24,502 nt of DNA, from IMG/VR virus record IMGVR_UViG_3300027896_000209, positions 1-24,502 of that record; one strand, written 5' to 3'. Shown piece by piece: positions 1,337-23,874 of this stretch. Each line of letters opens with the position of its first letter. The stretch's first letter is position 1. The notes under the pieces were generated by a model. It saw only the letters and a program-made list of their open reading frames with translations, searched no databases and was not told the DNA's origin. The translations under genes and the position numbers were made by a program. Source of the stretch: a virus.

Positions 1337-2329
1337 ATGGAAACGAAAGAACAACTGCTCTACTTCTTCCTGCAGGGGAAGATTAGTCTAAGCCAATATG
1401 ACTACAAGTTTCTTGCAAACTTGCAGACGATGGTCCATAATGATAGCAGGGTTACATCTAATCAGTCAGACCTGTTTGATAGGCTTATCTCTAAATACAA
1501 CAAGCAATTGGTTAAGCAAGGGATCGACGGAGAGACAGCTATTGCTCTTCCCTGGAAGTCTGTGATTGTTCAGAGTACGCCAGAATATACCGGGGCAACC
1601 GTGATGATTGTAGATGACGATATCACTATTCGAGTTCCGTTTAACAAAACCTTTATCTCAAAATTCAAAGAAATTCCCAACAACACTTTCCATTGGGATA
1701 AGGAACGTAAGAGGTATATAGCAAAGTTTTCTACTACTGCATTGAAGATTGCAGTAACATCTTTGGACAAGTACTTTCCCTCTGTACATTTTTGTGAAAA
1801 CATACAATCTATTTTGGCTGACTTGAAGCAGTACGACTCCGCATTATTTTGGAATCCTACGCTTACACTGGTAAATGACAAACTCATGATTGTTGCAATG
1901 TCATCTGTGCTTGCAGATGTGATTGGTGATATGGAAATAAATCTTGAGCCAATGACATTGTATAACCTTAGTCAGTTGGGTATTGCAATCGATCCTGCAT
2001 TAGTTGAACACGATCCGTTTCTAAAGTTCGCATCAGAACGTGTGACATATGTTGAGGCTTCTGAGGTCGCATCGATAATACCCATGATTCTAGGTCTTGG
2101 TACTAACAAGATACTGTGGGGCAGAGGTCTCGCGCATGGAACGATCGGCAAAGAAATCAAAGAACTGCTGTCTTCAAATGGAATCACCATTGCTGGAAAT
2201 CCCCGCATTTCATCACCCACTGATGATGAACTATGCATGTGCATATCTATCTATGATAGTGGTCCTCTTGCTTCATTCGTTTGCAAGATGATCATCATCA
2301 AGGATTCACGACCAATAGAGGTAAAATGA
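1337..2329 (+). CDS. Unknown protein with a HARP-like segment, coupled to UvsW
   Basis: A 330-residue protein of unknown function. Residues 1-75 are helical, with an LxxGKISLSQYDxKF-type segment. Residues about 100-145 read FNKTFISKF, FHWDKERKRYIAKF and TTALKIA; this pattern of a basic strand, a W-D-x-x-x-x-x-W/Y turn and a helix resembles HARP-type DNA-binding modules of annealing helicases such as SMARCAL1, though that is my reading and is unverified. I see no Walker motifs. Its stop overlaps the UvsW start as ATGA (2326-2329), so the two are translationally coupled. It begins directly after an early-type promoter with no leader. I infer a partner of UvsW in fork or branch processing. Confidence 0.8.
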   Translation: METKEQLLYFFLQGKISLSQYDYKFLANLQTMVHNDSRVTSNQSDLFDRLISKYNKQLVKQGIDGETAIALPWKSVIVQSTPEYTGATVMIVDDDITIRVPFNKTFISKFKEIPNNTFHWDKERKRYIAKFSTTALKIAVTSLDKYFPSVHFCENIQSILADLKQYDSALFWNPTLTLVNDKLMIVAMSSVLADVIGDMEINLEPMTLYNLSQLGIAIDPALVEHDPFLKFASERVTYVEASEVASIIPMILGLGTNKILWGRGLAHGTIGKEIKELLSSNGITIAGNPRISSPTDDELCMCISIYDSGPLASFVCKMIIIKDSRPIEVK

Positions 2330-3786
2330 GAGAAGCAAAAATAATAATCAAAGATGAGGTGAATGTGAAAATCGAGGGTCTTGAATTAGACACTCGAAGA
2401 GCATTGATGAAAAAGTTTGAGTTTGAAAAACCGGGTGCAAGGTATCTTCCTTCTGTTCGACTGGGTAGATGGAATGGTAAGATAAGCTATTTCTCTCTTG
2501 CAGGCAGTACCTTTCTTAATCTGTTGGATCAAATCATTCCATATCTTATGGAACATGACTATGATATTGAAATAGATGATCGTAGACAACCTCATCCTGA
2601 ACTTAAATTCGATGTGGTTAATGAAGACACATTTGCCGATACGTTATGGCCAAAAGGTCATGAACGCGAAGGTCAACCAGTTGTGTTGCGCGATTATCAG
2701 GTAGAGATTGTCAACAACTTCCTAGCTAATCCGCAATCATTGCAAGAAGTAGCAACAGGTGCAGGCAAGACGTTGATGACGGCTGCTCTAGCAAAGAGCG
2801 TAGAGCAATACGGTCGTTCTCTAGTCATTGTGCCCAACACCTCTCTTGTTGTACAGACAGAAGCAGACTTCATCAATCTAGGTTTGGATGTAGGAGTGTA
2901 CTTCGGTGCTCGTAAAGAATACGGAAAGACACACACTATCTGCACTTGGCAATCTCTGAACATTCTATTGAAGAAAATATCAGGGGAAGAAGATCGAGAC
3001 CCTGAAATGGAAGAGTTCTTCTTTGATGACATCGCCTGTGTAATTGTTGACGAAGTTCATATGGCTAAAGCTGATGTACTAAAGACAATGCTTACTGGAG
3101 TTTTTTCTAACATTCCTATTCGATGGGGACTTACAGGAACTATTCCAAAAGCAGCAATGGATAAAGTCTCGCTGCTAGTGTCTCTTGGTCCTGTAATCGG
3201 AAAGCTCTCTGCAAGTGAACTACAAGATCGCGGTGTTTTAGCTAACTGTCACGTTAACATTGTGCAGCTAAAGGACAAAGTGGAGTTCACGAACTATCAG
3301 TCAGAACTTAAACATCTGCTAGAAGATGAAAACCGTCTAGATAAAATGGCTGATCTAATCAGAGAGGTCAATAAAACCGGTAACACTTTGGTCCTAGTAG
3401 ACCGAGTGAATGCAGGTAAAGAGTTAGTGAGCCGATTAGACAACGCGGTGTTCGTTAACGGTGGCACTAAACTCACAGAACGAAAGGAAGAATATGATGA
3501 AGTGGCCACGAGTGATGACAAGATTATTGTCGCCACGTATGGCGTTGCGGCTGTCGGTATCAATATTCCTCGTATCTTTAACTTGGTACTTATTGAGCCT
3601 GGTAAGTCGTTTGTACGTGTTATTCAAAGTATTGGGCGCGGCATAAGAAAAGCAGAAGACAAGGACTTCGTGCAGATTTGGGATATCACAAGCTCATGTA
3701 AGTTTGCGAAAAGACATCTTACCCAGCGCAAGGTCTTTTATAAAGAAGCCCATTACCCCTTTACAATAGAGAAATTGGATTATTAA
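2326..3786 (+). CDS. uvsW: UvsW-like superfamily 2 DNA/RNA helicase
   Basis: A 486-residue SF2 helicase of the T4 UvsW type, which unwinds branched DNA and R-loops and helps switch from origin- to recombination-dependent replication. Motifs: Q-like RDYQ (122-125), Walker A ATGAGKT (143-149), DEVH box (242-245), motif III LTGT (269-272), and motif VI QSIGRGIRK (434-442). The first 110 residues contain the small N-terminal domain (LGRWNGKISYF, 46-56) seen in UvsW. Length is close to T4 UvsW (about 500-590 by annotation). I choose the ATG at 2326, preceded by AGAGG and overlapping the upstream stop, rather than an in-frame ATG at 2281 that lies inside the preceding gene. All catalytic motifs look intact. 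Confidence 0.93.
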   Translation: MREAKIIIKDEVNVKIEGLELDTRRALMKKFEFEKPGARYLPSVRLGRWNGKISYFSLAGSTFLNLLDQIIPYLMEHDYDIEIDDRRQPHPELKFDVVNEDTFADTLWPKGHEREGQPVVLRDYQVEIVNNFLANPQSLQEVATGAGKTLMTAALAKSVEQYGRSLVIVPNTSLVVQTEADFINLGLDVGVYFGARKEYGKTHTICTWQSLNILLKKISGEEDRDPEMEEFFFDDIACVIVDEVHMAKADVLKTMLTGVFSNIPIRWGLTGTIPKAAMDKVSLLVSLGPVIGKLSASELQDRGVLANCHVNIVQLKDKVEFTNYQSELKHLLEDENRLDKMADLIREVNKTGNTLVLVDRVNAGKELVSRLDNAVFVNGGTKLTERKEEYDEVATSDDKIIVATYGVAAVGINIPRIFNLVLIEPGKSFVRVIQSIGRGIRKAEDKDFVQIWDITSSCKFAKRHLTQRKVFYKEAHYPFTIEKLDY

Positions 3787-5489: not shown

Positions 5490-6077
5490 ATGGCTAAAGA
5501 AAAACTCTCAGCAGACGAAAAGTTTGAAAAGGTTGACTTTGACTTGTTTGATGCACTGACTGCCATAGACAAGAAGGACTACTCGTATTACGATAGATTG
5601 ACAGTTGAACAGCAGAAGAAGTTCATTCCGTTCATGATGATTCATTGGATAAGTACAGTAAAGGCAAACTCTGATATTCAGTCCTACTATCTACAAAGCA
5701 CTGAATATCATGCTAACAGGTATCTGTTCAATGAAAACGTACAGAAGCATCCCAAGCTACAATGGTTGATGTTGTGTGCTGCATCGCCGGGACTTGGAAA
5801 GCAATTTCATCAATGGATACCGCACATCAAAGAGCGAGTCAGTAAGCTAAAAGAATCTCCGAAGTACAAAGACATTAAGGAGTACTTCAAGAAAATCTAC
5901 CCCAAATCGAATGACGGCGACCTTTCCCTTTTGAGTGAGGTTTATGTTGACAATCATAAGCGTAGAATGTATCTTGCAAGTAAGTTCCCTAACATAAAAT
6001 ATGACGAAATCGAGTTATTAAGTGACCTTATCACAGACGAAGATATTAAGCAATATGAAGAAGACTGGGGTAACTAA
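5490..6077 (+). CDS. Candidate clamp-loader small subunit (gp62-like)
   Basis: A 195-residue, largely helical protein. The N-terminal pattern DLFDALTAIDKKDYSYYD (18-35), the segment KKFIPFMMIHW and a central QKHPKLQWLMLCAASPGLGKQ block recall the gp62-type small subunits of sliding-clamp loaders in marine T4-like phages. These pair with an ATPase subunit (gp44) to load gp45. I see no Walker A motif: PGLGKQ lacks the final G-K-S/T. No gp44 or gp45 gene is in the window, so the usual neighbours are missing. AAAGG lies before the start. It overlaps the next gene by 23 bases. The call is from remembered family patterns and is tentative; the gene itself is secure. Confidence 0.6.
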   Translation: MAKEKLSADEKFEKVDFDLFDALTAIDKKDYSYYDRLTVEQQKKFIPFMMIHWISTVKANSDIQSYYLQSTEYHANRYLFNENVQKHPKLQWLMLCAASPGLGKQFHQWIPHIKERVSKLKESPKYKDIKEYFKKIYPKSNDGDLSLLSEVYVDNHKRRMYLASKFPNIKYDEIELLSDLITDEDIKQYEEDWGN

Positions 6078-6750
6078 AACAGAATTCCAGTGTGAGTTCT
6101 GTAGTAGGTATTTCCAAAAGGAAACTACATGGATGAATCATCTGTGTGAAAGCAAGCGCAGATGGCAAGATCGTGATTTGGCTGGAAACCGCATCGGGTT
6201 TCAATCATGGCTTCGATTCTACAAGAAGAACACCAACAAGAAACAACTGACCTACGTAGATTTTGCGAAGTCGGCATACTACATTGCCTTTGTGAAGTTT
6301 GGTCATTACTGCGTTAATGTCAAAGTGATCAACGTAAATCGTTATGCTGACTGGTTGCTTGACAATAAGCTAAAGATTGACAACTGGTGCAGTGACGTAA
6401 ACTACAATAAGTTCTTGATTCAGTATCTAAAAGACGAAGATCCGCTAGATGCAATAGCCCGTAGTATCGAGACTACGATTGATATTGCTAAGGAAGCAGG
6501 AGTACAGAGCAAAGATTGCTTACGGTATGTGAATCGAAATCGACTAGCACAGATGGTGTCAAATGGAAAGATTAGCCCATGGATGCTCTATCACAGTGAG
6601 AGTGGTATTGCGTTTCTTGAAGCTCTAGACGAGGTGCAACAGAAATATATTCTGGAGTACATCAATCCCGAACAGTGGGCAGTAAAGTTCAAGCGTGATC
6701 CAGAAATGGTAACACAAGTCAAGCAACTTTTGGCAGCAGGAGGCTACTGA
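6055..6750 (+). CDS. Conserved phage protein with an N-terminal zinc-finger-like motif
   Basis: A 231-residue protein. The N-terminus has C13-x2-C16, an aromatic pair and then H29-x-C31 (FQCEFCSRYF, NHLCESKRR), a compact Cys/His site that probably binds zinc. The rest is helical and ends QLLAAGGY. I take the ATG at 6055 because the zinc site begins 12 residues in; the ORF is open upstream to 6022 inside the previous gene. It overlaps that gene by 23 bases and shares one base with the next. I recall homologues next to replication genes in marine T4-like phages, all of unknown function. DNA or RNA binding is inference. Confidence 0.75.
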   Translation: MKKTGVTKTEFQCEFCSRYFQKETTWMNHLCESKRRWQDRDLAGNRIGFQSWLRFYKKNTNKKQLTYVDFAKSAYYIAFVKFGHYCVNVKVINVNRYADWLLDNKLKIDNWCSDVNYNKFLIQYLKDEDPLDAIARSIETTIDIAKEAGVQSKDCLRYVNRNRLAQMVSNGKISPWMLYHSESGIAFLEALDEVQQKYILEYINPEQWAVKFKRDPEMVTQVKQLLAAGGY

Positions 6751-7770: not shown

Positions 7771-8322
7771 ATGGCTGATCATATTATGATAGATTTTGAA
7801 ACCCTTGATACAGCAGTTTCCACTGTTATCCTTACAATCGGTGCTGTGCGTTTTGATCCACGTGGGGTCGGCGTTATTGAGAAGTTAGAGCTTCGTCCCA
7901 CTATGGAGGAACAAACAGACTTGTTCAACCGTACTATCAGTGAAGACACCCTTCGCTGGTGGGGAGAGCAGAGTCCCGAAGCGATTGAAGAAGCAATGGG
8001 CGACCGTGATCGCATTTCATACAAGGAATGCATGGAAAAGCTCTACAAGTTCTGTTGGAATCGTGACAAGGTTTGGTCTAACGGCTCTGGATTCGACATC
8101 GTTATTGCTGAATCTGCTTTCCGCGATAATGGCATGAAGTATCCCTGGAATTTCTGGAACGTTCGTGATTGTCGTACTATCTATGACCTTGCCGGAGTTT
8201 CGCTTAAGGACGGCGGACACGTTACAAGTCACAAAGCAGTAGAAGACGCTGAGCGACAGGCTATTGTCGTACAGAAGGCGTATCAGAAGCTAATCAAGGC
8301 TGGGTTAACTCATATCAAATGA
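7771..8322 (+). CDS. DEDDh 3'-5' exonuclease (DexA/DnaQ type)
   Basis: A 183-residue DnaQ-fold exonuclease that would remove nucleotides from 3' ends of DNA with two metal ions. Motif I is IDFET (D8, E10), motif II is NGSGFDIVI (D109), and motif III is H154 with D159 in SHKAVEDAERQA, which gives the full DEDDh set. It resembles T4 DexA (227 residues) but is shorter. It also carries the WWGEQSPEA segment (63-71) common in this phage exonuclease group. ATG with AGAAAGAAG upstream. Its stop overlaps the next start (ATGA, 8319-8322), coupling it to a DnaE-palm-like protein, which suggests a proofreading or trimming role with that partner (inference). Confidence 0.9.
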   Translation: MADHIMIDFETLDTAVSTVILTIGAVRFDPRGVGVIEKLELRPTMEEQTDLFNRTISEDTLRWWGEQSPEAIEEAMGDRDRISYKECMEKLYKFCWNRDKVWSNGSGFDIVIAESAFRDNGMKYPWNFWNVRDCRTIYDLAGVSLKDGGHVTSHKAVEDAERQAIVVQKAYQKLIKAGLTHIK

Positions 8323-8936
8323 TTATTGATAGTGATATTGACATTGACTTAGGTGACCGCGAAAATCTACTAGCGGTCATCAAGCATATCCCTGCAGGTA
8401 TGCGAAATGCAAAGGTCAATGAAAAATATATCCATCAAAACTCTCCTATACGCAAACATGCTACCGGTGTTTACATCACTGAGATTCCTTACGATCCTGT
8501 CTATGACATGGCTGCTTTAGATTACAAGGAAGCAGACAGGCGTGGATATTTTAAGCTTGACTTGCTCAACGTCCATGTGTATAACTATGTTAAGAATGAA
8601 GAACACCTCGTTGAGTTGATGCGAGATCCGGACTGGTCTAAGCTTAAAGATCGTTCGTTTGTGAAAAAGCTAATTCACCTCAACAACAGTTACGACTTCA
8701 TTCAGAGGATGCCCGAGCCGATTGACTCTATTCCTCGTCTTGCTATGTTTCTTGCAGCGATTCGACCTGCAAAGAGACATCTATTGGGCAAGACTTGGAA
8801 AGAGATTAGTCAAACAGTTTGGGACAAAGACGATACTGGATACAGCTTTAAGAAAGCACATGGTATCGCCTATGCACAGCTTGTGGTAGTACATATGAAC
8901 TTAATAACGGAAGGTGGAATAAGTGAACCTAGTTGA
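8319..8936 (+). CDS. Miniature DnaE-like (C-family polymerase palm) protein
   Basis: A 205-residue protein that matches, in order, the palm landmarks of bacterial Pol III alpha (DnaE). DSDIDIDLGDR (4-14) corresponds to the PDxDxDF strand with the first two catalytic Asp. RKHATGVYIT (45-54) corresponds to the conserved HAGGVVI block. LDYKEADRRGYFKLDLLNV (67-85) corresponds to the FD...GLVKFDFLGL block, which carries the third catalytic Asp (here D81). AAIRP (146-150) corresponds to the YRPG region, and YSFKKAHGIAYA (175-186) to the FNKSHAAAYA motif. PHP, most of the fingers, beta-binding and OB regions are absent; full DnaE has about 1160 residues. Whether it polymerises DNA is unknown. I recall unannotated relatives in marine T4-like phages. 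It is coupled to the exonuclease gene. Confidence 0.8.
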   Translation: MIIDSDIDIDLGDRENLLAVIKHIPAGMRNAKVNEKYIHQNSPIRKHATGVYITEIPYDPVYDMAALDYKEADRRGYFKLDLLNVHVYNYVKNEEHLVELMRDPDWSKLKDRSFVKKLIHLNNSYDFIQRMPEPIDSIPRLAMFLAAIRPAKRHLLGKTWKEISQTVWDKDDTGYSFKKAHGIAYAQLVVVHMNLITEGGISEPS

Positions 8937-9688: not shown

Positions 9689-10192
9689 ATGGAACTACTT
9701 AAAGAAAACAGCCCCGAACTATCAGAAGTCTCAGCAGAATGGGACTTTGAGGTTGACGGTTCGCCGGAAGAACTCGTCAAGGAAATGATGAAGTTCATGA
9801 TCAACAATGGTGGAGTTGGTCTCGCTGCACCGCAAGTCGGAATCAGCAAGCGCATCTTTATCATGGGCAACTTTACTAAGATGGTTGCTTGCATCAATCC
9901 TAAGGTTGTTTCTCTGTCAGAAGATAGAATCGCTGATTTGGAAGGATGTCTATCATTCCCTGACTTGTTCATGAAGGTTAAGCGCCCAGTGTCATGCACT
10001 GTGCAGTATCAAAATATAGCAGGTGAAGTCATTGAGCGAGAACTTGTTGGGTTGGAATCTCGTGTGTTCTTACACGAATATGATCACTTGATCGGAATCA
10101 CGTTTGATCAGAGAGTCGGTGATTTGACTTTTAAAATGGCTAAAGAACGAAGAGCCAAAGAAGCAAAGAAGAAGTCTAGGGCAACCGTTTGA
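9689..10192 (+). CDS. def: Peptide deformylase
   Basis: A 167-residue metal-dependent deformylase that removes the formyl group from the N-terminal methionine of new proteins. All three family motifs are present: motif 1 GVGLAAPQVG (42-51), motif 2 EGCLSFP (85-91, metal-binding C87) and motif 3 HEYDH (129-133, the HExxH metal site). It lacks the longer C-terminal helix of many bacterial enzymes and ends in a basic tail (KERRAKEAKKKSR), as known phage deformylases tend to. ATG with AAGGA six bases upstream. In marine phages such enzymes are thought to sustain host, especially photosystem or phage, protein output late in infection. Its 3' end overlaps the minus-strand gene by 17 bases. Confidence 0.95.
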   Translation: MELLKENSPELSEVSAEWDFEVDGSPEELVKEMMKFMINNGGVGLAAPQVGISKRIFIMGNFTKMVACINPKVVSLSEDRIADLEGCLSFPDLFMKVKRPVSCTVQYQNIAGEVIERELVGLESRVFLHEYDHLIGITFDQRVGDLTFKMAKERRAKEAKKKSRATV

Positions 10193-10556
10193 CCATAGTA
10201 ATTGAGCGTCTTTTGGTTCTCTTCTTTAGAAAATCATTGATGCTCACTATTGGTCCATGAAGTATAACTAGACTTTTATTATTAAAAGTCTTTACATATG
10301 GCTTAAAAATATTCCAATCTTGTTTCAGAAACAAATTAATGGGAATCGTTCTATTCGATTCCCACCACCATATGTCACCTAATTCTAAGAATTTCGCTTT
10401 CAATTCAGGTTCTACAATTGACCCGTAGTCATATATTGTTGTCACCATATCGTCTCTATTTTGAATGATGCCCACGTAGTCCTGCGATGCGTAGGAACAA
10501 ACCGTTATAAACGGATGATTCTCAGTCAGCTTCTTGAAAAAGTCATTACTATCCAT
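10176..10556 (-). CDS. Conserved hypothetical protein, only minus-strand gene
   Basis: A 126-residue protein read leftward. Sequence features: FFKKLTENHPFITVCSY (6-22), a GIIQNRDDMVTTIYDYGSI strand pair, DIWWWESNRTIPINLFL (61-77) and a basic C-terminus (FLKKRTKRRSITMVKR). I recall relatives in marine T4-like phages, function unknown. Upstream on the minus strand is a late-promoter core ACTAAATA (10567-10574) that predicts a leader of only five bases and no Shine-Dalgarno sequence. The 3' end is antisense to the deformylase 3' end. The open frame and tidy promoter argue that it is real rather than a shadow of anything on the + strand, where no gene lies opposite. Confidence 0.8.
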   Translation of the reverse strand: MDSNDFFKKLTENHPFITVCSYASQDYVGIIQNRDDMVTTIYDYGSIVEPELKAKFLELGDIWWWESNRTIPINLFLKQDWNIFKPYVKTFNNKSLVILHGPIVSINDFLKKRTKRRSITMVKRLP

Positions 10557-11447: not shown

Positions 11448-11475
11448 TTGATTTTTGTATCAGGTATGTTACAAT
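11448..11475 (+). promoter_or_regulatory. Sigma-70-like promoter giving a predicted leaderless mRNA
   Basis: TTGATT (11448-11453), 16-base spacer, TACAAT (11470-11475), then six bases to the ATG at 11482. The predicted transcription start is the A of the ATG and no Shine-Dalgarno sequence is present. Confidence 0.6.
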
Positions 11476-11481
11476 ACATTT

Positions 11482-12456
11482 ATGTTTGACATTCTATCTT
11501 TGCTTCCAGGAAAGAAGAAAAGGACCTCTAGCGGTTGGACAAGTGTTAACGCACCTTGCTGTCATCATCGCGGACACAAGCCTGATCGGCGTATGCGCGG
11601 CGGCATTAAATTTAGTGACGGGACAAACTGGTCGTATCACTGTTTCAACTGCGGGTTCAAGTGTGGATTCACACTAGGTAAACAGTTTAGTAGCAATACC
11701 AAATTGATGCTGCATTGGTTGGGTATCGATGATACTCAGGTTACTCAATGGAACCTAGAAAGTCTAAAGCATCGCCATCTGCTTGACATTCTTTTACCTA
11801 CTGTAAAGAAAAAGAAAATCAAATTTGATGAGGTAGAGCTACCCGAAGCAGAACTCATAAACGAGAATAATCCAAAGCATAAAGTGTTTATAGATTATCT
11901 AGCTAAGCGAGGACTCAACCACACTGAGTATCCATATATGGTAACTCCTGATGCTGAAAACAGAAATGCAAATCGTATAATTATTCCCTATACCTTTGGC
12001 AATAAGATAGTAGGTCATGTCAGTCGTTACATCGATGATAGACATCCAAAATATATCAAGCAACAGCAAGCTGGTTATTTGTTTGGTTACGATTTCCAAA
12101 AGCCAGACTGGCAATGCTGTATCGTGGTAGAGGGTGTATTCGATGCTCTCAGTATCAATGGCTGTGCATTGACTTCTAACACGATAAATCCCATACAGAT
12201 AGACTTACTGCGAAATTTAAATAGACCAGTGATTGTGGTTCCGGATCAAGACAGTGCGGGTCTTGAACTCTGTGATCATGCTTTAGAATTGGGCTACAAG
12301 ATCAGCATTCCTGACTGGGGTGACGATGTTAAAGACGTAAATGACGCTGTAGTAAAATACGGCAGACTACCGACTTTGCTAAGTATAATGCAAAACGCAA
12401 CTAATAGCAAAATCAAGATTCAGATAGCGAGAAGAAGAATTGATAACCGAACATAA
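11482..12456 (+). CDS. DNA primase, gp61 type
   Basis: A 324-residue primase that would lay RNA primers for lagging-strand synthesis together with the helicase encoded next. N-terminal zinc site: C26-C27-H28-H29 and C54-x2-C57 in HCFNCGFKCG, typical of DnaG-family zinc ribbons. The RNA polymerase/TOPRIM core has VVEGVFDAL (215-223, catalytic E217) and VPDQDSAG (253-260, D255 and D257). T4 gp61 has 342 residues, so it is full length. I choose the ATG at 11482, exactly at the predicted transcription start; the frame is open to a TTG at 11455 that lies inside the promoter. The 3' end overlaps the helicase start by 17 bases. Confidence 0.92.
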   Translation: MFDILSLLPGKKKRTSSGWTSVNAPCCHHRGHKPDRRMRGGIKFSDGTNWSYHCFNCGFKCGFTLGKQFSSNTKLMLHWLGIDDTQVTQWNLESLKHRHLLDILLPTVKKKKIKFDEVELPEAELINENNPKHKVFIDYLAKRGLNHTEYPYMVTPDAENRNANRIIIPYTFGNKIVGHVSRYIDDRHPKYIKQQQAGYLFGYDFQKPDWQCCIVVEGVFDALSINGCALTSNTINPIQIDLLRNLNRPVIVVPDQDSAGLELCDHALELGYKISIPDWGDDVKDVNDAVVKYGRLPTLLSIMQNATNSKIKIQIARRRIDNRT

Positions 12457-13846
12457 TTTAGATGTACAAACACTTTTTCTAAGGATGATGATTACCAACG
12501 CAGAGCTTTACACTCGCGTTATGAATATCATGAATGCAGAAAACTTTGATCGTTCGCTAAGACCAGTAGCTACATTCTTATCGGAACATACCGCCAAGTA
12601 CAGTGTGATGCCTGATCCCATTCAGGTAAAAGCTATGACCGGTGTTGATCTGGAAATCATTGAGGGTCTAGATGATGGACATTATGATTGGTTTCTTGAA
12701 GAGTTTGAATCATTCACCAAGCGCAAAGAACTTGAAAGAGCGATTCTTAAAGCAGCAGACTTGCTTGAGAAGGGCGACTTTAATCCAGTTGAAAAGCTAG
12801 TAAAAGATGCGGTTCAAATCTCGCTACAGAGAGACATGGGCACAGACTACTTTGCCGATCCTAAGGCTCGTCTAAACAAGTACTTCAACGCAGGCGGACA
12901 GGTATCTACTGGTTGGCCACAGCTTGATCGTGTCATGTATGGTGGCATGTCTCGTGGCGAATTGAATATCTTCGCAGGTGGTTCTGGTTCTGGTAAGTCA
13001 CTCGTCATGATGAACATCGCACTAAATTGGCTACAAGCTGGTTTGAGTGGCGTTTACATCACACTTGAACTTAGTGAAGAATTGACTTCGCTTCGTACTG
13101 ACGCCATGCTTACAAGTATGAGTACCAAAGATATTCGTAGAGATATGGATACTGCGGAACTCAAGGTTAAGATGGTAGCAAAGAAGTCTGGACAGTATCG
13201 TGTTAAAGGACTTCCAGCACAGAGCAACGTCAATGATATCCGAGCATATCTGAAAGAAGTTCAGATTCAGACGGGCATTAAGGTAGACTTTGTGATGATT
13301 GACTATCTCGACTTGGTTATGCCAGTGTCAGTTAAGGTCAATCCAAACGATCAGTTCATCAAGGACAAATATGTATCAGAAGAATTGCGTAACCTAGCCA
13401 AAGAGTTAGGAATTCTGATGGTAACTGCATCACAGTTGAATCGTAGTGCAGTCGAAGAAATCGAATTTGATCACAGTCACATCGCAGGTGGTATCTCGAA
13501 GATCAATACTGCGGACTATGTGTTTGGTATCTTCACCAGCAGAAGTATGCGTGAACGTGGAAAGTATCAGATTCAGTGTATGAAGTCTCGTAGTTCTACG
13601 GGTGTTGGGCAAAAGATTGACTTGGAGTACAACATCGAAACAATGCGTATCACCGATGAAGACCCGGAAGTAGATGAGAGACCTCAGCAGAGTGCAACTC
13701 AACTCTTAAGTCAGATAAAAACTACAAGCCAACTTGGTTCTACTAATCAAGTAGTGCATGAACAAATACAGGATCCAAATAAGAAAGTTACAGGCGATGT
13801 GCAGAGTGCAAAACTCAAAGCAATGCTAAACTCTCTTAAGAAGTAA
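12440..13846 (+). CDS. Replicative DNA helicase, gp41/DnaB type
   Basis: A 468-residue hexameric 5'-3' helicase of the RecA-fold DnaB family, which unwinds the fork and stimulates the primase. N-terminal helical domain (1-130) with LRPVATFLSEH; Walker A GGSGSGKS (180-187), H1a glutamate E210 in ITLELSEE, Walker B MIDYLDL (286-292), sensor-like TASQLNR, and a late MKSRSSTG segment fitting the arginine-finger region. T4 gp41 is 475 residues. The start appears to be TTG at 12440, inside the primase gene after GAGAAGAAG; the first in-frame ATG (12485, residue 16) would cut into the N-terminal domain. The tail (420-468) is Gln/Ser-rich and likely flexible, as in gp41. Confidence 0.93.
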   Translation: MITEHNLDVQTLFLRMMITNAELYTRVMNIMNAENFDRSLRPVATFLSEHTAKYSVMPDPIQVKAMTGVDLEIIEGLDDGHYDWFLEEFESFTKRKELERAILKAADLLEKGDFNPVEKLVKDAVQISLQRDMGTDYFADPKARLNKYFNAGGQVSTGWPQLDRVMYGGMSRGELNIFAGGSGSGKSLVMMNIALNWLQAGLSGVYITLELSEELTSLRTDAMLTSMSTKDIRRDMDTAELKVKMVAKKSGQYRVKGLPAQSNVNDIRAYLKEVQIQTGIKVDFVMIDYLDLVMPVSVKVNPNDQFIKDKYVSEELRNLAKELGILMVTASQLNRSAVEEIEFDHSHIAGGISKINTADYVFGIFTSRSMRERGKYQIQCMKSRSSTGVGQKIDLEYNIETMRITDEDPEVDERPQQSATQLLSQIKTTSQLGSTNQVVHEQIQDPNKKVTGDVQSAKLKAMLNSLKK

Positions 13847-14138: not shown

Positions 14139-15057
14139 GTTTAAAAAACCAAAACAAATAGACGAAGGAATGGCTGATAACCTTTTCGGAGCCTATAATG
14201 TACCTGAAAAACTCAGAAACATGTTTTCCGGACAGGATGCAGTGGCTAATCCGGCAAAAGCACAAAAAATCTTCATTAACGATTTCTATTCTAAGATTAA
14301 GTTGGCATTGGACAACGCTGTAAAGAGTGGGCTAGTCAATCCTTCTATTACACAATTTATTCAGCCTCAACCTGGCCAAAAAGAACCATCTACCACTCCA
14401 ACGGCGCCAACAACATCAGCCCCTAAAGCTAGTCCTGCACCTGCTGCTCCAATTACACCTAAACCACCAAAGCCAGCAGGGCCATCTAGCGCACAGCAAA
14501 CAGTGGATGCAGCGAAGCAGCATAGACAAGAAGTAGCAAAGGCTCAGCAAATTCAAGCAGCAGGCAAAGCAGCCGCAGCTAAGCCGGGATATCAAAGAAC
14601 AGCAGCAGACAAGATTGCTATGAAGGCAGCAGGATTGTCCGAAGATGCATATGACAGACTCAATGCTATCTTTGAAAGTATCATGGAAGCCGGCGAGGAA
14701 CCTCAGCAGCAAGGAATTTATCAATTCGTTAGAAATTGGTACGCTGATTATATGGGTAGCCTAAATTGGAAAGCACACGAGCCGCAGATCAATAAACTCT
14801 TGCAAAATGTTCAAACATCGTATAAGACAGATGGAGGAAAAGCAGCATTGTCGCAACTAGCACAAGCAACTTATTCTTTAGCTAGTGCTGCGACCGCAGG
14901 AAAGAATGGAAGTAGACCTTCGTATGATGATTATGAATATTCTGCACCGCAGCCTATACAAAATTTGCCACCTCAGCAAATTAAAAAAGCTATGATATCA
15001 TTGCATAATAGAAACCCATATGAGTATGACCAAATAAAGAAGACTCTTCCAGAATGA
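14125..15057 (+). CDS. Late protein with a Pro/Ala/Gln-rich linker
   Basis: A 310-residue protein in three parts. Residues 1-80 are folded, with NVPEKLRNMFSGQDAV and a helix QKIFINDFYSKIKLALD. Residues 80-165 are low complexity, rich in Pro, Ala, Thr and Gln (APAAPITPKPPKPAG), and flexible. Residues 172-310 form a helical C-terminal domain with AYDRLNAIFESIMEAGE (175-191) and a VRNWYADYMGSLNW block. AAGGAAG precedes the ATG. The stop overlaps the next start as ATGA. Position in a late unit suggests a virion or assembly protein; no specific function recognised. Confidence 0.75.
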   Translation: MKINEFKKPKQIDEGMADNLFGAYNVPEKLRNMFSGQDAVANPAKAQKIFINDFYSKIKLALDNAVKSGLVNPSITQFIQPQPGQKEPSTTPTAPTTSAPKASPAPAAPITPKPPKPAGPSSAQQTVDAAKQHRQEVAKAQQIQAAGKAAAAKPGYQRTAADKIAMKAAGLSEDAYDRLNAIFESIMEAGEEPQQQGIYQFVRNWYADYMGSLNWKAHEPQINKLLQNVQTSYKTDGGKAALSQLAQATYSLASAATAGKNGSRPSYDDYEYSAPQPIQNLPPQQIKKAMISLHNRNPYEYDQIKKTLPE

Positions 15058-16199
15058 GTGATATCAGAGACCTAATCAACAAGATGGAAACTATCAACAA
15101 GGTTATTGTTGAGGGTAAGAGCCACCTCGATCATCCTGAGGATTTGGTGTTCTTGCAGGATGAGGCAGGTGCCAGAAAGGCCATTGATTCGATTAAAACT
15201 GTAGTATCGAATCCAGACAAAATTACGGTCAAGTACGATGGCTATCCTGCTCTAGTATTTGGAAAAGGCTCTGATGGCAAGTTCTCCATCATGGACAAGC
15301 ACATGTTCAACAAGAAAGATGGTTCGGGCCGCAGAGTGTATAGCCCTGAACAATTTGCTCAATACGATGCAGCGCGCGGAGTAGACCGAAGCGACTTGCA
15401 TGAAGTGATTGCTCGTATTTGGCCCGGTCTCGAAAAAGATGATCGCGCCGGCACTGGGTACTACTGGGGTGATTTGCTTTTCAGTCATCCACTTGAAAAT
15501 CACAATGGCGAATATCGTTTCAAAGCAAATCCAAATGGGATATCGTATTCAGTAGATGTGGACAGTGAAGTAGGTAAACTCCTTCAAGGAAAAGATGCAG
15601 CCATCGCAGTGCATCAGTTCATCCCGGCCGATGCTTCATCCACTGAGGAAGCTGTGTCACTGGATGGTACTATTGGAAATCTACAGAATGCATCTAACGT
15701 TGCAATCGTGCCTAGTAAACTTCCAATGACACCTAAGCTTAAGCTTAATAACAGTCTAGTAAAAGTCGCAGAAAAAGAACTTGCACAGTATGGAAGTGCA
15801 GTGCGTGAAATGATGACTACTGCTCCTCAGGCGCGTAATACTTTCAACCAGCTATTCACTGTCTTTGTTAACAAAAAGATTATGTCAGGTAGTCTGACCA
15901 ATCTAGCACGAGATTTTATGGATTTTGTGGAATCTAGACCAATGTCTGAAAAGATGAAAGCTAAGATTTCAGAACACCTGAATCAGCACAAGCAAGGCAT
16001 TATTGGTGCCTTTAAGATTTGGGCTGCAATTTACAATTTGAAGCTTGACGTAGTGAATCAGCTTAACAAGGCAGCAGAGTCAAGTCCTGTCAGAGGACAT
16101 CTAGCAGACGGCAAGCAGACCCAAGAAGGCTTCGTTGCTCAGGGTCTAAAGTTCGTTGATCGTCTAGGATTTAGTCGCCAAAACTTCGCTGGCCGTTGA
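15054..16199 (+). CDS. KxDG nucleotidyltransferase/ligase-like protein (DUF6267-like)
   Basis: A 381-residue protein. ITVKYDGYPALVFG (57-70) matches motif I of covalent nucleotidyltransferases (DNA/RNA ligases, capping enzymes), with K60 as the would-be AMP-binding lysine. GYYWGDLLFS (135-144) fits the motif III position and YRFKANPNGISYS (154-166) lies where motif IV would be, but I cannot find a clear motif V (KxK). The first 55 residues include HLDHPEDLVF, which I associate with a phage family I remember as DUF6267. The helical half from about 230 has no match. Late unit, ATGA overlap with the previous gene. Whether it ligates, adenylates or has lost catalysis is open. Confidence 0.75.
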   Translation: MSDIRDLINKMETINKVIVEGKSHLDHPEDLVFLQDEAGARKAIDSIKTVVSNPDKITVKYDGYPALVFGKGSDGKFSIMDKHMFNKKDGSGRRVYSPEQFAQYDAARGVDRSDLHEVIARIWPGLEKDDRAGTGYYWGDLLFSHPLENHNGEYRFKANPNGISYSVDVDSEVGKLLQGKDAAIAVHQFIPADASSTEEAVSLDGTIGNLQNASNVAIVPSKLPMTPKLKLNNSLVKVAEKELAQYGSAVREMMTTAPQARNTFNQLFTVFVNKKIMSGSLTNLARDFMDFVESRPMSEKMKAKISEHLNQHKQGIIGAFKIWAAIYNLKLDVVNQLNKAAESSPVRGHLADGKQTQEGFVAQGLKFVDRLGFSRQNFAGR

Positions 16200-18827: not shown

Positions 18828-19544
18828 ATGGCTATTACTAATAAATTCCCTTATAAAGAAATGAAAAAAGTCAACATTGACGGATCCCGTCGATATTTGA
18901 CTCCGGACGGAGAAAAAGTCCCTAGTGTGACTACTATCCTAGATGCAACTAAATCAGAAGAATCTAAGCAAGCGTTACGTGAATGGCGAAACAGAGTCGG
19001 TCACGCAAAAGCACAAGAGATTACGACTGAGGCAGCGGGTAGAGGTACTCGTATGCACAAATGGATCGAAGATTTTATCAAGCTAGATGTGATCGGTGAG
19101 CCGGGAAGCAATCCATACAGTCAGCAGAGTCATCTGATGGCTCAAGAAATTATCAACAATGGTTTGGTAAAGTGCGATGAATATTGGGGAACAGAAGTCT
19201 CTTTGTTCTTTCCCGAAGTGTACGCAGGAACTACCGACTTGTGCGGTATTCATGATGGCTCAGAAGCTATCATGGATCACAAGCAATCCAACAAAGTCAA
19301 AAAGCGTGAATGGATTGAAGACTATTTTGTTCAGACCGCAGCATACGCATTAGCACACAATGAAGTTTACAACACTAAAATTCGCAAAGGTGTCATCTTC
19401 ATGTGTGTGAAGCCAGAGCTTGTAGATGGTGTATGGGCAAAGCCACAGTACATCGAATTTATCATTGAAGGCAACGAGTTCGACAAGTATACTGATCTTT
19501 GGTACAAGCGACTAGAGAAGTACTACTCAAAGTTTGTGAATTGA
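18828..19544 (+). CDS. PD-(D/E)XK nuclease, Cas4/RecB-like
   Basis: A 238-residue nuclease of the PD-(D/E)XK superfamily. Motifs in order: GRGTRMHKWIE (71-81, the conserved GTxxH helix, H77), E123 in WGTEVSLFF, GTTDL (134-138, D137), MDHKQS (149-154, the DxK catalytic pair D150 and K152), and QTAAYALA (169-176, the QxxxY motif of RecB/Cas4-type enzymes). No four-cysteine iron-sulfur cluster of classical Cas4 is visible. It probably acts on single-stranded DNA or DNA ends in recombination or host DNA degradation. Its own early-type promoter sits among late genes. No terminator follows, so its transcripts may run into the tail-fibre gene. Confidence 0.9.
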   Translation: MAITNKFPYKEMKKVNIDGSRRYLTPDGEKVPSVTTILDATKSEESKQALREWRNRVGHAKAQEITTEAAGRGTRMHKWIEDFIKLDVIGEPGSNPYSQQSHLMAQEIINNGLVKCDEYWGTEVSLFFPEVYAGTTDLCGIHDGSEAIMDHKQSNKVKKREWIEDYFVQTAAYALAHNEVYNTKIRKGVIFMCVKPELVDGVWAKPQYIEFIIEGNEFDKYTDLWYKRLEKYYSKFVN

Positions 19545-19567: not shown

Positions 19568-19601
19568 AGAGTATATTCAAATGGGTGAAACATACTCTTA
19601 T
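19565..19601 (+). promoter_or_regulatory. Hairpin enclosing the tail-fibre start codon
   Basis: ATAAGAGTAT (19565-19574) and ATACTCTTAT (19592-19601) are perfect 10-base complements; the right arm includes the A and T of the ATG at 19600. Inside, TTCA (19576-19579) can pair with TGAA (19586-19589). RNA made from upstream would hide the start codon. RNA from the late promoter begins at about 19573 and cannot form the stem. Confidence 0.65.
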
Positions 19602-22600
19602 GTCGATTTTACAGATTTCAAAAATCCAGCAACGCTCAGGTAACCTAGTAGACCTGCCGCAATTAGATGAAGCCGAATTTGGCTGGGCATCTGACAATAG
19701 ACGCCTTTTCATTGGTAAGACTTCACCCAATGAAAATGTAGAGATTTTAACTGCCTACTCAAACATCAATTTTAGCCAAATCTCCGGCAGCTACGGCAAC
19801 CTAAATATTAATCCAGTTAATCTAGGTAACGGAGAAGTTCTAGCATTTGATGGGACGAACTGGGTTAATCGTGGTGGCGCTGCTGGCGGAGAAATCAATC
19901 TCGGCAACATTTCAAACGTAACTATCACCGGCGGTGCAATTGGATATGTGCTGCAAACAGACGGATTAGGAAATCTTTCATGGACTCCTAAATCCACTCT
20001 AGTTTCGTACATCGAAAACGTATCCAGTGCGAATCCCGGTGTTCTTACTACGGTATCAAATCATAATCTCAGCAAGGGCACCTCAGTAACAATAACTGGC
20101 GCTCAAGGTATGACTCAGTTGAACGGTAATGCATACTATGCAAACGTTCTGACTTCAAATACATTTTCATTGTATTCGGATAGTGGTCTGACTACCCCAG
20201 TAAACACTATTCCATATACATCATACGCATTTACATCAGTATCCAATACTACAACTGGAACAAACTATGTAACTGTAGGAAACAGTGCAGTCCTCTCAGT
20301 CAATCAAGCTGTCCAATTCGTTGGAAACATGTCAAACACAGGCATTTCATCGAATACTACATACTATATTAACTCAAAGCCAAATGGCACTAGCATCACG
20401 ATTTCGAACAGCATTTATCCGAACGGTACTGCTGGGCCAATTTTAAGCTTGTCAACCGCTAATGGTCTTACTGCTAATGTCTATCAAACAGGTGGACAAA
20501 TTGTTTCTATCGTTTCGGGTGGTAGCGGCGCTGGCGCTGCTGGTTCAAATACTCAAATTCAGTATAATAACAACGGTATCCTTCAGGCAAGTTCTACTCT
20601 TACTTTTGATTATGCTAACAATATTTTACTTGTCGGAGGCAACGCAAACGTAGCGAATTTAAATTCGACAGGAATAGTCACAGCGGTTACATTGTCATCT
20701 AACGTAACAACAGGTACTGCACCACTGACAGTGAACTCAACTACCAAAGTAGCAAATTTAAATGCTGATTTAGTCGATGGTTACAACACTTCGGCAACTA
20801 CCACTGCAAACACAATAGTAGTACGTGATGCAAACGGAAGTATAAGCAGTAACGTTGTTACTGCAAATAGCGCATCATTGGGAACTCTTGCGGTAACAGG
20901 CACTTCAAATCTAGGTAATGTCGGTAATGTTACTATCACCGGCGGTACCACTGGTCAATATCTGCAAACAAACGGCTCAGGCGGACTAACATGGGCCACT
21001 GTCAGTACCACTATAGCAAATATTTCAAATGGCACATCAAACGTAAACATCAATTCAGTAAATGGTAACGTGGGTGTGTCTGTTGCAGGAACATCTAACG
21101 TTCTTTTGGTAACAGGAACCGGTGCTAATGTCAGTGGCTATGCAAACATAACCGGTAACGTGATTGCAGGAAATGTTTCTGGCACACTATTGACTGGTAC
21201 ATTGACAACTGCGACACAACCAAACATCACTAGTGCAAATGCTCTAGCAAATGTCGGCAATGTAACTGCCGGTACTTGGAACAGCGCAATTGGAGCATCT
21301 GCTACATTTGCGGCCGGATTATCAGGTGCAAACCTAAACTTTATTAATGGTGCTAACGTAAGCACCGTGCCTAGTGCAACAAGTGCAACTAATGCATCTG
21401 CGGTGTTACAGAATACATCATCTGCAACCACTGTGTATCCGAAATTCACTACTTCTTCTGCAAATGGCAATTCATCGGCTGTAATCAATACAAGTATTAG
21501 TGCTAACTTGGCTAATGCAAGTATCACTGCAACTACATTTGTTGGTGCTTTGAGTGGAGCAGCAACTTCTGCTACTACTGCAACCAATGCAATTAATACA
21601 GGTGTTACTACTCAGAGTACAGGCATCTATTATCCTACATTTGCTAGTGGAAATACAACTAGCAATTATGCTCTTGCATCTAATCCTGCATTCAGCGTAA
21701 ATCTATCTAATGGATCTATTATTGCAGCGAACTTTGTCGGTAATCTAATTGGTACTGCAACTTCTGTAAGCACAGCTAACGTAACTCAAATAACAAATAT
21801 ATCTTCTGGAATTTACTATCCTACGTTTGTCGCTAGTAGCGCAAACGGTAACTATTCTATGGGTGCAAGTAGTTCGTTCAGTGCCAACCTGTCAAATGGA
21901 TCCATCACTGCAACTACGTTCGTCGGCGCATTAAGCGGCGCTGCGACTTCAGCAACAACAGCAGGTACAGTAACCACTAATGCTCAGCCTAACATTACAT
22001 CAGTTGGTACGTTGACCGCATTAACTGTAACTGGAAACGTATCTGCCGGAAATGTAAACGCTACTGGTAATGTTTCTGGGCTGTATTTCATAGGTAATGG
22101 TAGCCAGTTGACTGGCATCAATACCGGTTTACCAAATCAGATTGTAAATGGCAATTCAAATGTAAATATTGCTTCTGCGAATGGAAATATTACATTAAGC
22201 GCAACAGGTACATCTAATGTAATTGTAGTCACTAGCACTGGTGTTAATGTTTCAGGAACACTAAACACTGGATCGGGTGTAATAACAGGCAATGGATCCG
22301 GTTTGACTTCTCTGGCTGGTAGTCAGGTAGTAGGGCAAGTAGGAAATGCCCTTATAGCTGGTACTGTCACAACAAACGCACAACCAAACATCACTTCAGT
22401 GGGGATACTTACTTCATTAGCGGTTACCGGAAATATCTCGGGCGCAAATCTAACTGGTAATCACTTCGGTAACGGTTCAGGGCTAACTAACCTCACCGGT
22501 TCGCAAGTTGCAGGTACTGTTGCAAATTCGACTTATGCAACAAGTGCAGGAAGTGCAACAACAGCGACAACTGCCGGTACTGTAACAACTAACGCTCAGC

Positions 22601-23874
22601 CTAACATTACTTCAGTGGGCATACTTACATCACTTTCAGTAACCGGCAACATAACTGGTGCAAACATTACTGCAAACATATTTGGTAATGGCTCTGGGTT
22701 GACAGGTTCAGCATCTGCGTTCACTGCGAATAACGCTAATTATCTAGGTGGATATTCTTGGGCGTCTCCTCCGCAGATCGGCAGCTCAACTGCTAACTAC
22801 GGCACATTCAGCGGTCTAACAGTGACCGGTACATTATCCGGTGCAAGTATAACTGCAACAGGAAATCTGTCTGCTGCTAATGTTATCGCAACTACAGGTG
22901 TCATCTACGGTAACGGATCAGGTATTACTTCAATCAACGGTTCATCTGTAACCGGCACTGTAACAAGTTCCACTAATGCAGCAGCAGTGTTGACCACCAC
23001 TTCATCCGCTACTTCAGCGTATCCTACTTTTGTTACCTCATCGGCTAATGGTAATTCTCAAAATTATATTACTACCGGTATCAGTGCGAATCTAGCTGCC
23101 AATTCGATCACCGCTACTACATTTGTTGGGAATTTGACCGGTGCAGCAAGTACTGCCGGCACTGTAACTGCTAACGCACAGGGTAATATTACATCAGTCG
23201 GCATTCTATCTAATCTCACAGTATCAGGTGGTATTCTTTCAGGTAATGTGACTGCACAAAGTCCGGGATTCTTTGCAGGTAGTGGATTTGGATTAACTAA
23301 TATTCCAGGTGCACAGGTCACTGGAACATTGGGCATTCCTACAACAAGTTATGCTGCTACGGTTTCAGGAAATGCACAAGGTAATATCACTTCGGTCGGC
23401 ACGTTGACCGGATTAGCTGTGAGTGGAAATACTCAAATAGCATCACTGGGCGTAGGCACCTCAGCAACTGGTACTTCTGGACAAATCATAGCAACCAACA
23501 ACATTACTGCATACTATTCAGATGGTAGATTGAAGGATGTATTGGGTACTATCGAATCTCCATTAGAAAAGATCAAACAGATTTCAGGTGTAAGATTCAC
23601 TAGCAACGATACTGCTGCAAAATATGGTTACACGGACAAGAAAGTTCAGATCGGTGTCATTGCACAGGAAATCGAAGCAATTCTTCCTGAAATCGTTGTG
23701 CCGGCTCCATTCGATATGGGCACTGACGACGACGGAAATCCAATCAGTAAGTCAGGTGAAAATTACAAGACTGTTCACTATGACAAGATCATTCCTCTGT
23801 TGATTGAAGCAATCAAAGAGCAGCAAAAGCAAATTGAAGAGTTGCAGAGCAGAATATCTAATGGTAATTCATAA
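19600..23874 (+). CDS. Giant tail fibre with C-terminal peptidase S74 chaperone
   Basis: A 1424-residue host-recognition fibre. Residues 1-50 (ILQISKIQQRSGNLVDLPQLD, GWASDNRRLFIG) match the N-terminal beta module of Mtd-like and other fibre proteins. About 140-210 holds an NHNLSKGTSVTITG-type beta domain, and an ADLVDGYNTS/TIVVRDANGSI motif typical of fibre shafts follows near residue 390. The shaft is built from two repeat families (listed separately). At the C-terminus, SDGRLK (1307-1312) starts the S74 domain (118 residues, IGVIAQEIEAILPE, ending in a coiled coil), which acts as an intramolecular chaperone and is then cut off at the serine. Start: ATG 19600 rather than GTG 19585, because MSILQIS is the family-like beginning. 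Expression is late. Confidence 0.93.
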   Translation: MSILQISKIQQRSGNLVDLPQLDEAEFGWASDNRRLFIGKTSPNENVEILTAYSNINFSQISGSYGNLNINPVNLGNGEVLAFDGTNWVNRGGAAGGEINLGNISNVTITGGAIGYVLQTDGLGNLSWTPKSTLVSYIENVSSANPGVLTTVSNHNLSKGTSVTITGAQGMTQLNGNAYYANVLTSNTFSLYSDSGLTTPVNTIPYTSYAFTSVSNTTTGTNYVTVGNSAVLSVNQAVQFVGNMSNTGISSNTTYYINSKPNGTSITISNSIYPNGTAGPILSLSTANGLTANVYQTGGQIVSIVSGGSGAGAAGSNTQIQYNNNGILQASSTLTFDYANNILLVGGNANVANLNSTGIVTAVTLSSNVTTGTAPLTVNSTTKVANLNADLVDGYNTSATTTANTIVVRDANGSISSNVVTANSASLGTLAVTGTSNLGNVGNVTITGGTTGQYLQTNGSGGLTWATVSTTIANISNGTSNVNINSVNGNVGVSVAGTSNVLLVTGTGANVSGYANITGNVIAGNVSGTLLTGTLTTATQPNITSANALANVGNVTAGTWNSAIGASATFAAGLSGANLNFINGANVSTVPSATSATNASAVLQNTSSATTVYPKFTTSSANGNSSAVINTSISANLANASITATTFVGALSGAATSATTATNAINTGVTTQSTGIYYPTFASGNTTSNYALASNPAFSVNLSNGSIIAANFVGNLIGTATSVSTANVTQITNISSGIYYPTFVASSANGNYSMGASSSFSANLSNGSITATTFVGALSGAATSATTAGTVTTNAQPNITSVGTLTALTVTGNVSAGNVNATGNVSGLYFIGNGSQLTGINTGLPNQIVNGNSNVNIASANGNITLSATGTSNVIVVTSTGVNVSGTLNTGSGVITGNGSGLTSLAGSQVVGQVGNALIAGTVTTNAQPNITSVGILTSLAVTGNISGANLTGNHFGNGSGLTNLTGSQVAGTVANSTYATSAGSATTATTAGTVTTNAQPNITSVGILTSLSVTGNITGANITANIFGNGSGLTGSASAFTANNANYLGGYSWASPPQIGSSTANYGTFSGLTVTGTLSGASITATGNLSAANVIATTGVIYGNGSGITSINGSSVTGTVTSSTNAAAVLTTTSSATSAYPTFVTSSANGNSQNYITTGISANLAANSITATTFVGNLTGAASTAGTVTANAQGNITSVGILSNLTVSGGILSGNVTAQSPGFFAGSGFGLTNIPGAQVTGTLGIPTTSYAATVSGNAQGNITSVGTLTGLAVSGNTQIASLGVGTSATGTSGQIIATNNITAYYSDGRLKDVLGTIESPLEKIKQISGVRFTSNDTAAKYGYTDKKVQIGVIAQEIEAILPEIVVPAPFDMGTDDDGNPISKSGENYKTVHYDKIIPLLIEAIKEQQKQIEELQSRISNGNS
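21436..23157 (+). repeat. Tail-fibre repeat family A, four copies
   Basis: About 50-residue units of the form Y-P-x-F-x-x-S-S-A-N-G-N ... S-I-T-A-T-T-F-V-G ... G-A-A-T-S, beginning near 21436, 21628, 21814 and 23020. Copies 1-3 follow each other with short joins; copy 4 is separated. Copies 3 and 4 run directly into family B units. Confidence 0.8.
21967..23460 (+). repeat. Tail-fibre repeat family B, five copies
   Basis: Units beginning T-V-T-x-N-A-Q-x-N-I-T-S-V-G-x-L-x-x-L-x-V-x-G at 21967, 22363, 22579, 23161 and 23359, most followed by GNGSGLT-type turns. A degenerate copy (TLTTATQPNITS) begins near 21199. Protein repeats are close while their DNA differs mainly at silent positions. Confidence 0.85.

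Follow-up and report, generated by a model that had tools for sequence, protein, structure and literature searches.

The viral record IMGVR_UViG_3300027896_000209 of IMG/VR, of which positions 1 to 24,502 were analysed here (24,502 nucleotides, the window), raises the question of why phages already equipped with a family-B replicase would retain a second, bacterial-type polymerase. The gene at issue lies at positions 8319-8936 of the plus strand, encodes 205 residues and resembles DnaE, the alpha subunit of DNA polymerase III (Pol III) and a C-family enzyme. It is probably the catalytic-metal subunit of a minimal C-family nucleotidyltransferase made of two proteins, serving short, low-processivity synthesis beside the family-B polymerase. 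From homology, conservation and a structural model it is assigned as the C-terminal subunit of a trans-split mini Pol III alpha, comprising the metal-binding half of the palm and a remnant of the fingers, and is referred to below as the C piece; its predicted partner is referred to as the N piece.

The 205-residue protein is a homologue of the DnaE catalytic core. It belongs to phrog_11778, annotated as 'DNA polymerase' (E 4.2e-53), with no match in a Pfam search and none among PDB sequences when the single sequence was used in phmmer; among all open reading frames (ORFs) of the window it was the sole match to a ten-sequence DnaE palm-fingers profile (E 1.6e-6). An earlier note on this stretch, made from the sequence alone, had called for a profile search against DnaE, and this search returned a significant match: an alignment of 20 relatives compared with a ten-segment DnaE palm-fingers profile in hhalign gave a probability of 97.8% (E 6.7e-13); none of 20 column-shuffled controls exceeded 2.9% and a reversed one reached 1.0%, which together exclude a chance resemblance. 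Comparison with the single E. coli sequence recovered the KSH motif alone, so that the ten-sequence DnaE profile is required. Searching PDB chains with the relatives' profile (hmmsearch) gave weak matches, colinear with E. coli DnaE, at its residues 401-420, 606-641 and 750-767. The AlphaFold model of the C piece (mean predicted local distance difference test score, pLDDT, 85.8) has strands at residues 7-11 and 79-84, and Pol III alpha accounted for each of its top 14 Foldseek matches in the PDB (best probability 1.00, E 4.7e-3).

The motifs that had been paired with DnaE from the sequence alone fall in the same order under E. coli numbering, and the equivalents of D401, D403 and D555 are all present. 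On the plus strand, the DIDID strand (8334-8348) carries D6, D8 and D10, equivalent to E. coli D401, D403 and D405, and coincides with the modelled strand at residues 7-11; HATG (8457-8468) supplies H47 and G50 and corresponds to H511-A-G-G of E. coli; and KLD (8553-8561) supplies K79 and the third aspartate, D81, equivalent to K553 and D555, in the strand at residues 79-84. These are followed by two fingers motifs, RPAK (8763-8774), in which R149-P150 correspond to R639-P640, and FKKAHGIAY (8847-8873), corresponding to FNKSHSAAY of E. coli with H181 at the position of H760; HATG and both fingers motifs were placed by conservation and E. coli numbering. Across 101 distinct C-piece relatives no variation occurs at D6, D8, D10, H47, G50, K79 or D81, and conservation is 99% at R149, P150, K152, H181 and Y185.

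The C piece is also under purifying selection, with a ratio of non-synonymous to synonymous substitution rates (dN/dS) of ~0.1 against close relatives. Together with the conservation of the motifs, this bears on the idea that the protein is an inactive relic, or a decoy for the host clamp, the host exonuclease or a primed template, as might be expected of a small protein that has lost most DnaE domains. Such a reading is very improbable: the metal ligands are all invariant even though C pieces are only ~35% identical across phages, dN/dS is low, and the C piece is kept along with the N piece described below. The decoy and template-binder functions that had been put forward for the protein are disfavoured because of this invariance of the metal ligands.

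Absent from the C piece, relative to DnaE, are PHP, the GRGS-bearing first half of the palm and most of the fingers insert. D10 and H47 are separated by 37 residues, compared with 106 in E. coli, indicating that the thumb is gone from the C piece (a hunt for a thumb on a third gene was limited to PF07733). At the site of the absent thumb (8406-8450, plus strand) there is a low-confidence insert of ~10 residues (pLDDT 54), shared by the window and relative L001 and partly by L020. The GRGS nucleotide-binding motif is absent from the 205-residue chain; in relatives it is supplied by a second protein.

This second protein, the N piece, was identified in a PF07733 search of 12 records carrying the C piece, 11 of which contained a second short ORF that always matched profile positions ~20-97, the twelfth record being a 108 kb fragment. 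The N pieces are ~170 residues long, contain a motif of the GVGRGSSVAS type and mostly end in EFLK, and GxGRGS is invariant in 83 N-piece sequences. Their profile matched DnaE chains of the PDB (E 9.4e-6, covering E. coli residues 320-393), hhalign against DnaE gave 97.2% with the match likewise ending at residue 393, and the AlphaFold model (mean pLDDT 91.2) found Pol III alpha as its best Foldseek matches (probability at most 0.97, with a weak E of 0.24). The N piece thus stops at E. coli residue 393, and the D401 strand is where the C piece starts, which makes the two complementary. No ORF holding both pieces was found among 203 loci, and the only match outside the family in that search was a separate, compact DnaE-like protein of 583 residues, stop to stop, at L057:5964-7712 (plus strand), 1.3 kb upstream of the C piece on the same viral contig. 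It has RGSAGSS, DIDLDF, KHCGG and KIDIL motifs of its own, so that one phage may carry both forms.

Co-occurrence of the two pieces is close to complete, as at least 58 of the 60 GenBank phage records with a C piece among the matches listed also have an N piece. A single-chain relic, as the earlier note had proposed, is therefore rejected, since relatives encode the GRGS half of the palm in a second gene at another place in the genome. The same note had described a pared-down, two-gene Pol III core, of which the two genes stand, with the difference that the partner found in 11 of the 12 records is the N-terminal palm protein and not the exonuclease gene next to the C piece. The N piece lies tens to hundreds of kb from the C piece in relatives, and is near a gene for a gp44-like clamp loader or an AAA ATPase in phages GAP32, 121Q, PAC2 and Phosso. 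In Alishewanella phage Slicko01 (L032, L040), which at 141 kb is below the 200 kb jumbo limit, the two pieces share a strand and are separated by only 11 kb; the C piece of this phage lies on the longest branch of the C-piece tree.

A family-B polymerase (PF00136) was detected in 11 of the 12 relatives' records, all 11 of which also carry the N piece, and the window itself encodes a UvsW-type helicase. The earlier reading, a DnaE-type catalytic core where a family-B polymerase is the usual enzyme, thus agrees with both the hhalign match and these records. In the phages of records W08, W01, W03 and G003 the family-B matches lie in two distinct open frames; a split PolB with an intein has been published for the related phage MIJ3 (PMC6892783).

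The probable explanation for this arrangement is that the three catalytic aspartates, a lysine like K553 and shortened fingers come from the C piece and the nucleotide-binding GRGS half of the palm from the N piece, and that the two would associate without a covalent bond where the chain is broken, ahead of the DxDxD strand, and so restore a single active site. Homology, the division into two genes, the invariance of the motifs, co-occurrence and purifying selection are demonstrated; assembly, polymerase activity and role are inferred. As the pieces have neither PHP nor thumb and no parts for binding beta or tau, and as a T4-like family-B polymerase is present, short, low-processivity synthesis would be the most likely activity, with gap filling, repair or an Okazaki-type fill-in as candidate roles within the replication-recombination machinery of the phage.

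The same absences, of the thumb, PHP, clamp-binding and tau-binding parts, and the same presence of a full family-B polymerase would also fit an assembly of the two pieces that is not a template-dependent polymerase but a nucleotide-binding or nucleotidyl-transferring accessory, acting for example in end tailing, damage sensing or regulation of the family-B replisome; many nucleotidyltransferases of the polymerase-beta fold are non-polymerases. However, the fingers motifs RPxK and FKKxHxxxY are retained beside the metal ligands, and the gene sits within a replication cluster running from uvsW to primase and helicase, and on this evidence an accessory function is considered rather unlikely.

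Several observations do weigh against the proposed split polymerase. The N piece was not found in the 24.5 kb window, which is a fragment of a genome, and that this phage has one is inferred from its relatives, among them the record G001, which carries an N piece and a C piece 80% identical to that of the window (blastp). The DxDxD strand falls outside the significant hhalign segment and is assigned from motif order, its invariance and where the break falls. Foldseek E-values are modest for both pieces (4.7e-3 for the C piece and 0.24 for the N piece), and the structural support consists of pLDDT, strand positions and Foldseek matches. An enzyme that lacks a thumb could be a poor polymerase, and no published assay of the split enzyme was found in a literature search that took in neither most subscription journals nor preprints.

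The gene directly upstream of the C piece encodes a DEDDh 3'-5' exonuclease of the Rv2179c/DexA type (7771-8322, plus strand, 183 residues). That a full DEDDh exonuclease gene overlaps the 205-residue gene by an ATGA start-stop junction was already noted from the sequence, and both ORFs and the junction at 8319-8322 (plus strand) were confirmed; the further statement that the two are fused in translation reduces to a mere four-base overlap, and the C-piece ORFs, at 136-238 residues stop to stop, are too short for a fused exonuclease. The best Pfam match of the exonuclease is PF16473 (E 3.2e-35, 121.8 bits), with membership of phrog_255, and we take it to be comparable to T4 DexA. A DnaQ identity (RNase_T, PF00929) was rejected on a score of 12.3 bits (E 0.26), under the cut-off of 24. 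The catalytic residues are conserved, D8, E10, D109, H154 and D159 each being present in 63-64 of 64 aligned homologues.

Among the 92 informative loci, i.e. distinct loci with sufficient upstream sequence, the exonuclease is upstream of the C piece at 65, with the exact ATGA overlap at 34 of these, a distance of at most 20 bases at five more, and a gap of more than 500 bases at another five. A quickly built tree of 100 C pieces, many of whose inner branches are weak, accounts for this adjacency with 5 changes where shuffles needed 23.6, and places it within a single clade of uncultured phages. None of the eight cultured phages examined shows it, nor does L003/L004, a near sister of the window, and G001, the 360 kb record of L003/L004, contains no PF16473 protein. 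Some cultured phages have a PF00929 exonuclease instead, and in others none was detected. The exonuclease is accordingly rejected as a universal partner.

Within the window's clade, the linkage and overlap, the clustering of the trait on the tree and the intact catalytic residues could indicate that the exonuclease is the proofreading subunit of the mini Pol III, comparable to epsilon with E. coli alpha, which would be an addition to the two-protein enzyme and not an alternative to it. However, the cultured phages, L003/L004 and G001 are without the linkage or the family, other phages have a different exonuclease or none detected, the long gaps at five loci separate the genes, and the protein is of the Rv2179c/DexA family and not DnaQ; membership of a polymerase complex is not known for PF16473. 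A proofreading subunit is thus a doubtful proposal, and the proofreading partner originally suggested is of the Rv2179c/DexA type rather than DnaQ-like, with an adjacency restricted to one clade. That an exonuclease translated just ahead of the C piece may trim errors is the weakest step of the proposed mechanism; proofreading may occur in this clade, but it would not be general, nor the exonuclease an essential partner. Equally tentative is a fuller version in which the exonuclease, the C piece and a distant N piece would form a three-subunit replicase core of ~560 residues beside the family-B polymerase, its DexA-type proofreader having been recruited separately from DnaQ.

The neighbourhood of the C piece in relatives includes uvsY/uvsW, primase and helicase, and the order in cultured relatives is uvsW, a C2H2-type gene where annotated, the C piece, a convergent small gene, primase and helicase. 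The window has this order around the C piece with additional genes interposed. Its conserved upstream neighbour is the UvsW-type helicase (2281-3786, plus strand; phrog_16, PF21241 UvsW_N), followed by a C2H2-type protein (6022-6750, plus strand; phrog_11058) of the kind likewise annotated upstream of the C piece in relatives. A convergent small gene (10176-10556, minus strand; phrog_11637) corresponds to a minus-strand gene of similar size directly 3' of the C piece in relatives, and between it and the C piece lies a peptide deformylase (9689-10192, plus strand; PF01327, E 3.1e-39). The conserved downstream neighbours are a DNA primase (11455-12456, plus strand; phrog_47, E 4.5e-38) and a DnaB-like replicative helicase of the gp41 type (12440-13846, plus strand; phrog_19, E 2.2e-73, PF03796). 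Further downstream on the plus strand are a DUF6267 member (15054-16199; PF19782, E 5.7e-38), a second nuclease of the PD-(D/E)XK exonuclease type (18828-19544; phrog_298, E 9.8e-51) and a repetitive protein of 1429 residues (19585-23874) with a C-terminal Peptidase_S74 endosialidase-chaperone domain at residues 1312-1371, which is probably a tail fibre or similar structural protein.

If the N and C pieces truly assemble, the result would be a thumbless C-family polymerase of ~375 residues with an active site built across two chains. Such an enzyme would directly test how far Pol III can be reduced and still synthesise DNA, as well as the published proposal that pieces of this kind resemble an ancestral state, while the exonuclease link opens proofreading in trans to experiment.

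A split enzyme of this kind was already predicted in 2021, and the same split was reached here independently from sequence searches. Iyer et al. 2021 (PMC7824862) reported that group 2.2 jumbo phages, which have a family-B polymerase, also encode a minimal, phage-specific Pol III alpha in the form of two proteins from distant genes, an N-terminal one that binds nucleoside triphosphate and a C-terminal one that binds Mg2+ and template, which likely reconstitute the enzyme. The genome paper of phage CBB (PMC5259590) describes a truncated alpha subunit of 172 residues that is equivalent to the N piece, and no other papers on the split enzyme were found in the literature searched. The window gene is homologous to the C-terminal protein of group 2.2 phages such as Atu_ph07. 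However, the pair is not restricted to jumbo phages, as it occurs here in the 141 kb Slicko01, and the window and its uncultured relatives add a DEDDh exonuclease gene directly upstream, often with the ATGA overlap. A text search of the 2021 paper for the exonuclease gave a single passage, on group 1 polymerases, with no mention of an upstream gene. Compared with E. coli DnaE (NP_414726.1), a single chain of 1160 residues, the predicted phage enzyme has the same motif order, with equivalents of D401, D403, D405, D555, K553, H511, R639 and H760, but is divided over two chains totalling ~375 residues with GRGS in the partner, has no PHP, thumb, or clamp- or tau-binding region, and has fingers ~90 residues shorter between R639 and H760. 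The full-length DnaE proteins of other phages (1,336 matching records), for example those of Streptomyces, Mycobacterium and Geobacillus, likewise place a C-family core in phages, but those sampled are long single-chain enzymes, unlike the split pieces. The upstream exonuclease is a member of the Rv2179c-like/DexA family (PF16473, phrog_255) with its DEDDh residues intact, and differs from that family in adjoining a polymerase piece; this linkage of a proofreading-type exonuclease gene to the C piece, in one group of uncultured phages, is the new element.
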